Positions 7,361 through 23,145 of a stretch of DNA of 37,700 nt are shown here, in pieces. The position numbers and the translations under genes are program-made. The first letter of the stretch is position 1; every line of letters begins with the position of its first letter. Below the pieces are notes generated by a model. The model saw nothing but the letters and a program-made list of their open reading frames with translations, was not told where the DNA came from and did no database searches. This stretch comes from Clostridiaceae bacterium (GTDB taxonomy: Bacteria; Bacillota; Clostridia; SK-Y3): positions 1 to 37,700 of the forward strand of contig JAAYHJ010000020.1 in assembly GCA_012735465.1 (NCBI GenBank), read 5' to 3'.

Positions 7361-8005
7361 TTACGATACCGCTCCATCATGCTTCATCTTTCTTTTTTGT
7401 AACTCTTTAGCAATTTCATTATCTTCTTTTATTTGTTTTTTATACTTTCTAAGACCGCAAATCCTGCAAGAAAAAACATAGATTATTGATATTAGATCAT
7501 TTATCAATTCTTCTTCTGGCGACAGGTCTTCATTATTTACAGCAATGATTTCAACTCCATTGGATTTCAAAAACTTCTCAAACCAATCAAAACCAAAACG
7601 AACAAATCTGTCCTTATGTGTAACAAGAATTGTTTTAACTACACCTGACAAGCAATCTTCTATAAGTTTATTCCAGTTTTTACGGTTATAATTTAACCCA
7701 CTGCCTATATCCTCAACTACCTCATCAACTACCATTCCTCTTGAGCTAGCATATTGCTTCAAGAATCCTATTTGATTAATCAGGTCTTCTTTTGAGCTTG
7801 AACTTGAAACCCTGGCGTAAATTATTGTTTTACCGCGTTTGGGATTACTATTATTCATGTAATCCACGTACTGCTTATGAGTATAATAACGCCTGTTAGT
7901 TGGAGTGCGAAATGCTTTTAATATACCTTTTCTGTCCCAACGTTGGAGTGTTTTTACCGATACACCAATCATTTCAGCAAATTCACATGGCTTATAATTA
8001 TTCAG
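7361..8005 (-). CDS. IS607-family serine recombinase TnpA, without TnpB
   Basis: A MerR-like helix-turn-helix (VSVKTLQRWDRKG) is followed by a small serine-recombinase domain with YARVSS (catalytic serine), DIGSGLNYNR, THKDRFVRFG and DLISIIYVFSCR, the signature blocks of IS607 TnpA. The first ATG (7972) would cut off the start of the DNA-binding domain. The frame stays open upstream through NNYKPCEFAE, matching the usual family N-terminus, to CTG at 8005-8003, which has AAGGGGG 8 nt before it; I therefore propose a CTG start (214 residues). IS607 elements normally carry an overlapping tnpB gene. None is present here; a terminator follows directly. IS607 ends lack inverted repeats, so element boundaries cannot be drawn. 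The domain looks intact; mobility is unknown. Confidence 0.85.
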   Translation of the reverse strand: MNNYKPCEFAEMIGVSVKTLQRWDRKGILKAFRTPTNRRYYTHKQYVDYMNNSNPKRGKTIIYARVSSSSSKEDLINQIGFLKQYASSRGMVVDEVVEDIGSGLNYNRKNWNKLIEDCLSGVVKTILVTHKDRFVRFGFDWFEKFLKSNGVEIIAVNNEDLSPEEELINDLISIIYVFSCRICGLRKYKKQIKEDNEIAKELQKRKMKHDGAVS

Positions 8006-21420: not shown

Positions 21421-21693
21421 TCATTCTTTACCGGATACCTTTTCATAGGGCCAGTCATTAATGCTTCTAAGGTTGTATACATTTTCAAATCCTAATTCCA
21501 GCGCTTCTTCCAGGGCTGTCTGGGATCTCACCCCTTTTGAACAATAAAATATTATTTTTGCACCATAGTTTTGAACCACCTCAACAAGCCTATCCTTTAT
21601 CTGGTCGACCGGTATGTTGATGCTGCCTTTTATGTGCAGTTCCTCGTATTCGCTTGGGGTTCGCACGTCTATAATAAAAGCACCCTTTTCCAA
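21421..21693 (-). CDS. Rhodanese-like domain, in frame behind a UGA of the upstream lipoprotein gene
   Basis: A single rhodanese domain with DVRTPSEYEELHIKGSINIP and the active-site loop CSKGVR (catalytic Cys). The listed start is TTG at 21693, the only usual start codon after the upstream stop, but AGGA sits only 2-3 nt before it and this start removes the family's normal first helix. That helix (ISPEQAKKDL) is encoded in the same frame at 21720-21691. The only thing separating it from the YCF48-like lipoprotein is one TGA at 21732-21730. So this may be the C-terminal part of one larger protein, either by UGA read-through or after a nonsense mutation. Rhodaneses carry sulfane sulphur or sense it; the substrate here is unknown. 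Confidence 0.7.
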   Translation of the reverse strand: MEKGAFIIDVRTPSEYEELHIKGSINIPVDQIKDRLVEVVQNYGAKIIFYCSKGVRSQTALEEALELGFENVYNLRSINDWPYEKVSGKE

Positions 21694-21729
21694 ATCCTTT
21701 TTTGCCTGTTCAGGTGAAATCTTGTACTG

Positions 21730-23145
21730 TCAGAGCGCACTGCTTTCCTGCACGTCAAACCAAAAGCCTTCGCCCACCAAGGCTATAAAGTCACCTGAAA
21801 AAGCCATGCCCTTTATGTCGTATTCTGTCAACTGTTCCAGCTTGTTGCATTTTATGCACTCAGTAATGGTGAGGAGCTTTCCATCATCACACGCGGCAAG
21901 AAGCTGGTCTCCATTCAATCCAATCATGTTTATTGTAATGGGAAGTACATAGTCCAACAGGTCCCCGTTAACCCTGTTCAAAACATGCGGCATCCATATC
22001 TCACCGGTATCGCTGGACATTATAACCGGAACACCCGGATGTTCCTTGTATTCACCGGATAAGAAAAACACATTGCCGCAGGCATCTATGCTGTGAAACC
22101 AGTAAGGATCGTCATAACCTTCATAATACTTATTGTAATCCAGTATCTTCCATGTCCCTCCATTGGTGGACATAAGAATCTGGGTTTCTCTCGTAACAGC
22201 CATGCACATCTTGTCAGTTGCAGAAATAGAAATAATATCGTTATTGGTCTCAGTTTGTTGCAAAATCCACTCTTCACCATCAGAAGAAGACAGGATTATT
22301 CCACCTTCTCCTGCTGCAAAAAATGTACCTTGAAACACGGTTATCCCATAAAGCCGTGCTTTTACACCACTGTTTTTAATATTAAAATTGTCTCCGTCCC
22401 TTGAAACCAATATAGTACCATTGTCACCCACAACTACTATAATGCCGTCTGAAGATGCAATCCCATAAAGATCAGCATTTGTGCCGGAATGCAAATTAAC
22501 AATGGATTTGTCCCTAAAAATTCGGCTTATCCTGCCGCCGGTCCCCACTGCCAAAAAGTCATAACCATAAGTACATACCGCATTGTAACCTCCGGATACC
22601 GTAAAAGAAGAATCTTTTTTAGAACCGGAAACCGGAATATTTTTCCCCTCAGCTTTGCTATCATTTTTTGTTGTCACCGTTGTTTGGGAAGCAGAAGACT
22701 TACTACTGGATACACTCTTCTTCGAATTATCGGATTCTTTTTGATTTTTATCGGACTCACTTAATACGATCGTTTCCGTTGACTTTTTTTGCGCTACTTC
22801 TTTTGTACTATCGGAAGACTTATTTCCCGAAGACTTATTTCCTGAGCTTTTATCTATTCCAGTATCTTTATCTGCAGTTAAAGTATCCTTGGCCGTTGTT
22901 TTATCTTGCTGATTTATCTCCCCTGTATTATCGGAAATCTTATCTTCTACAGTGTTTGTACCTGAAGAGTCATTATTTGTACCTGAAGTATCATTTATAG
23001 ATACATTTTCTAATCCTTCGTCAGCTGCAGAATCTGCTTTCTTGCTATTGGAACCACAAGCACAGAGTACCGAAACTAGCAATAAAGCTATTAAAATGTA
23101 GGGACTTATCTTATATATTTTTGAGTTTCTTTTAAACTGTAACAT
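21730..23145 (-). CDS. YCF48-like beta-propeller lipoprotein
   Basis: 471 residues from ATG at 23145, which has GGAGG about 8 nt upstream; an earlier in-frame ATG at 23211 has none. A lipoprotein signal ends in VLCAC. A long Ser/Thr/Lys/Asp-rich tether (about 35-180) contains short repeats such as NKSSGNKSS. The rest is a propeller-like domain with recurring blades of the form VGDNGTILVSRDG and AGEGGIILSSSDGEEW, typical of YCF48/HCF136 and BNR/Asp-box proteins. Its function is unknown; this fold often mediates protein assembly or glycan contact at the cell surface. It is the first gene after promoter module C and precedes the rhodanese frame and the GH3 gene. The stop is UGA followed by C, a leaky context. 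Confidence 0.8.
   Translation of the reverse strand: MLQFKRNSKIYKISPYILIALLLVSVLCACGSNSKKADSAADEGLENVSINDTSGTNNDSSGTNTVEDKISDNTGEINQQDKTTAKDTLTADKDTGIDKSSGNKSSGNKSSDSTKEVAQKKSTETIVLSESDKNQKESDNSKKSVSSSKSSASQTTVTTKNDSKAEGKNIPVSGSKKDSSFTVSGGYNAVCTYGYDFLAVGTGGRISRIFRDKSIVNLHSGTNADLYGIASSDGIIVVVGDNGTILVSRDGDNFNIKNSGVKARLYGITVFQGTFFAAGEGGIILSSSDGEEWILQQTETNNDIISISATDKMCMAVTRETQILMSTNGGTWKILDYNKYYEGYDDPYWFHSIDACGNVFFLSGEYKEHPGVPVIMSSDTGEIWMPHVLNRVNGDLLDYVLPITINMIGLNGDQLLAACDDGKLLTITECIKCNKLEQLTEYDIKGMAFSGDFIALVGEGFWFDVQESSAL

Follow-up and report, generated by a model that had tools for sequence, protein, structure and literature searches.

Secreted single-domain rhodaneses, such as those of the PspE type and the lipoprotein rhodanese L005, are exported proteins with an active-site Cys loop, their own signal peptide, and their own start. 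Ordinary nonsense (pseudogene-type) alleles in bacteria, on the other hand, have one premature in-frame stop, the rest of the gene being intact, as are the copies in relatives. The gene described here lies in a 37,700-nucleotide stretch of a draft Clostridiaceae genome (contig JAAYHJ010000020.1), which we call the window, and resembles both. Its rhodanese part has the Cys loop of the exported rhodaneses and, in common with L005, ends in NDWPYEK, but unlike them it follows a propeller domain. Like a nonsense allele, it is broken by one in-frame UGA, but here the stop falls between two domains, so that the first domain may still work. Its nearest counterpart, the orthologue L004, has the same domains in the same order, a gapless joint, and then the same GH3-type glycosidase gene, but it is 48% identical and is without a stop at the joint. 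We consider the UGA very probably an ordinary nonsense codon within a gene that was ancestrally a fusion, due to a recent mutation or to an assembly or sequencing error, and not a site of programmed read-through.

The interrupted reading frame

Minus-strand translation of 21421-23145 confirmed the in-frame UGA between a lipoprotein and a rhodanese domain that the earlier note had placed there (Table 1). The lipoprotein part, preceded by a GGAGG ribosome site at the normal distance from its ATG, has 471 residues. It begins with a signal peptide and a lipobox (...LLVSVLCAC), continues through a low-complexity Ser/Thr/Lys linker into a beta-propeller-like domain of about 290 residues that is weakly YCF48/BNR-like, and ends in ...FDVQESSAL. 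The description "YCF48-like lipoprotein" in the earlier note thus holds for the lipoprotein and is loose for YCF48: in a Pfam profile search, PSII_BNR (PF14870) had no match in the window protein and scored below the gathering threshold in an orthologue (E 0.0067, 16.1 bits against a cut-off of 27). Beta-propeller profile matches in the orthologues were weak, and no Pfam family covered the propeller-like region above its cut-off.

After the UGA, the same frame continues for 102 codons, reading QYKISPEQAKKDLEKGAFIIDVRTPSEY...FYCSKGVRSQ...NDWPYEKVSGKE up to the terminal UGA. This part belongs to Pfam family PF00581 (E 1e-19, 71.3 bits, cut-off 22.2) and retains the catalytic loop together with the DVR and NDWPYEK motifs. 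Codon statistics were coding-like both before and after the in-frame UGA.

Table 1. Features of the interrupted propeller-rhodanese gene (positions in the window)
Feature	Position	Strand	Basis
Lipoprotein frame	21733..23145	minus	ATG at 23145, translation, GGAGG site, orthologues
In-frame UGA at the domain joint	21730-21732	minus	Codon alignment; Tyr (n=1) or Arg (n=3) in orthologues
Rhodanese domain, same frame as lipoprotein	21424..21729	minus	Pfam PF00581, alignment; loop CSKGVR intact
UGA, natural end of the fused frame	21421-21423	minus	Translation

Orthologues and the ancestral fusion

One orthologue came from a scan of genome contigs (L004, a 530-residue protein on the metagenome-assembled contig DUMB01000082.1 of Clostridiaceae bacterium AS04akNAM_34) and three from the 391 genomes of the class that were searched, one in G159 and a first and a second copy in G213. 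These four genes, from three other genomes, are 37-48% identical to the window gene, and all are single open frames. Between the window protein (P0001) and that of L004 (P0002), 48% of 501 aligned residues are identical (E 9e-162) and no gap falls at the joint, which indicates that the rhodanese continuation past the UGA is not due to chance. In a codon alignment that is likewise gapless across the site, the orthologues have TAT, AGG, CGG, and AGG at the position of the stop. Since all four are uninterrupted with a sense codon there, as a nonsense allele of a fused gene would have it, the alignment shows the gene to have been ancestrally one fused protein, with the window copy carrying a derived stop in the linker. 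Separate genes with their own starts, which the earlier note had named as evidence against a fusion, did not occur among the four.

The genomic surroundings are partly shared. The L004 gene has a sugar ABC transporter permease gene on one side and a GH3-type glycosidase gene on the other, the latter being the downstream neighbor in the window as well. In G159, and likewise at the first G213 copy, a response-regulator gene comes immediately before; by eye, it is very like one located two genes upstream in the window. Among the genomes searched, closer relatives were absent from the genus (represented by one genome), the family, and the order of the window's genome, and the families of G159 and G213 gave no further orthologues. 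Because of this patchy distribution, with one genome in each family searched, the gene is probably dispensable, and the loss of its rhodanese part would be unsurprising.

As a group, L039, L040, L041, and L004 make up a family, rare and scattered over Clostridia, of lipid-anchored fusions between a propeller and a rhodanese, whose genes adjoin response-regulator or sugar-uptake genes. No named Pfam or NCBIfam family covers their propeller part above the cut-off. The fused family, found beside sugar-uptake, response-regulator, or glycosidase genes, corresponds to no named family of the libraries that were searched, and naming it may be worthwhile.

Mutation or assembly error

The rhodanese part shows no sign of long decay. 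Its identity to the orthologues is 48-62%, slightly above that of the propeller, and the window branch, on a fixed topology, has a rhodanese length of 0.52 and a propeller length of 0.48. Where the other four sequences are invariant, the window protein had changed at 8 of 43 columns after the stop versus 4 of 60 before it (leave-one-out; Fisher p 0.12), so that relaxed selection on the rhodanese gave no significant signal among the five sequences, only a hint of faster change. Synonymous sites were saturated across these five sequences, making dN/dS uninformative. Given that the catalytic loop is kept and that change is not significantly in excess, the stop appears to be either recent or absent from the real genome, in line with the argument against long decay in the earlier note.

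A recent single-base nonsense mutation is the most likely origin, a wrong base in the assembly being the less frequent case. The latter, in which the real genome would have an intact fused gene, is unlikely but carries appreciable weight: the assembly is a draft of 95 contigs, the rhodanese is fully intact, all four orthologues are intact, and the same assembly contains other single in-frame stops. There is, however, no direct evidence of an error, and such breaks are few in the 335 kb sampled. Well-covered assemblies seldom contain single substitutions.

To estimate how many genes are broken in this way, stretches of the window's genome totaling 335 kb were scanned for coding sequence, as judged by codon statistics, that directly continues past a stop and lacks a start codon in its first eight codons. 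The scan returned five sites. Inspected by eye, three were neighboring genes with their own starts, one was the lipoprotein-rhodanese gene itself, and one was a transposase. Together with the propeller-repeat gene described below, this makes two other genes in the 335-kb sample that are broken by one in-frame stop. Such isolated stops, whether mutations or errors, are thus present in this assembly at a low frequency and are not exceptional here.

Under the preferred reading of a nonsense codon in a fused gene, the ancestral protein was secreted and lipid-anchored, with a propeller-like domain and a C-terminal rhodanese, and the copy in this genome has one in-frame UGA in the linker between the two. 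If the UGA is real, the product would be a truncated lipoprotein with its whole propeller and, save for trace background read-through, no rhodanese. The consequences are mostly for annotation: in place of the single fused protein of the relatives, a gene caller would give either two genes or a truncated lipoprotein.

Re-initiation, read-through, and recoding

Two working genes, with the rhodanese made by coupled re-initiation at a downstream TTG, would be a very improbable arrangement. The earlier note was right that the rhodanese alone lacks a good start codon and ribosome binding site. No ATG is available to it, and the first TTG (21691-21693), though only 12 codons past the stop, is without a usable ribosome site, as AAGGA lies just 1 nt before it. 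A start at this TTG would also remove the first conserved rhodanese segment and any signal peptide, leaving a cytoplasmic product.

The earlier note had offered two readings, a nonsense mutation or error in a fused gene and a functional read-through. The intact orthologues favor the former. The latter, giving mostly a short lipoprotein and a minority of rhodanese-tagged product, is very improbable. An intact domain follows the stop directly and in frame, it has no good internal start, and its good state would also fit an occasionally useful read-through. However, programmed read-through implies a stop conserved in relatives with selection downstream, and here the stop is conserved in none of the relatives found, all four orthologues having a sense codon. 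The earlier note had suggested looking for a read-through or SECIS-like RNA structure: the RNA around the stop was no more stable than shuffled sequences (z +1.1), and Rfam gave nothing credible there. The genome has release factor 2 (prfB, G000:C10:19376-20410, L074; its one in-frame UGA is that expected of the usual programmed frameshift), and UGA is a common stop, terminating 30 of 140 open reading frames of at least 300 codons in a sample of this genome.

The proposal that UGA followed by C is a leaky context also proved weak. In the same-genome sample, 7 of the 44 UGA-terminated open reading frames of at least 200 codons end in UGA-C, and it is a following A that has been named as the context particularly prone to misreading of UGA by tRNA-Trp in E. 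coli (PMC5289835). Matches to a tRNA-Trp pattern did not rise above chance level. We see hardly any prospect of a leaky UGA that arose lately, is tolerated, and yields a surface lipoprotein in two forms, the propeller alone in most cases and the rhodanese as well now and then; rather, we infer the stop to be recent and not regulated. Frameshifting of the release factor 2 type at CUC UGA C was discarded, as the rhodanese is read in the zero frame and not in +1.

Selenocysteine insertion or another recoding of the UGA has next to no likelihood: some rhodanese-related proteins are selenoproteins, and NCBIfam seleno_TsoB and rhodanese_LYCAU gave weak matches below their cut-offs, but neither tRNA-Sec nor SelB exceeded its family cut-off in this genome (estimated 98.6% complete), and the UGA sits in a linker, where the orthologues have Tyr or Arg, and not at a Cys-equivalent position, the catalytic Cys being encoded as Cys. 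The top match to SelB, a frame of about 420 codons, is probably EF-Tu; it lies near another GTPase frame, which has 728 codons and looks like EF-G.

Other interrupted and mobile genes in the genome

The transposase recovered by the scan is of the Mutator family (IS256 type; L051, G000:C20, minus strand) and is split by an in-frame UAA at 294, both halves matching PF00872 in register. A second propeller-repeat protein (L007, G000:C1, minus strand) is split by one in-frame UAA at about 1801-1803 (...VAVGTAGAI*ISDDCKVWKS...). In the window, a minus-strand frame at 7361-7972 resembles, by eye, an IS607-type serine recombinase. It sits inside an apparent xylan/xylose utilization cluster of GH43-, GH10-, and GH3-like enzymes, a sugar ABC transporter, and frames like xylose isomerase and xylulokinase, all likewise recognized by eye.
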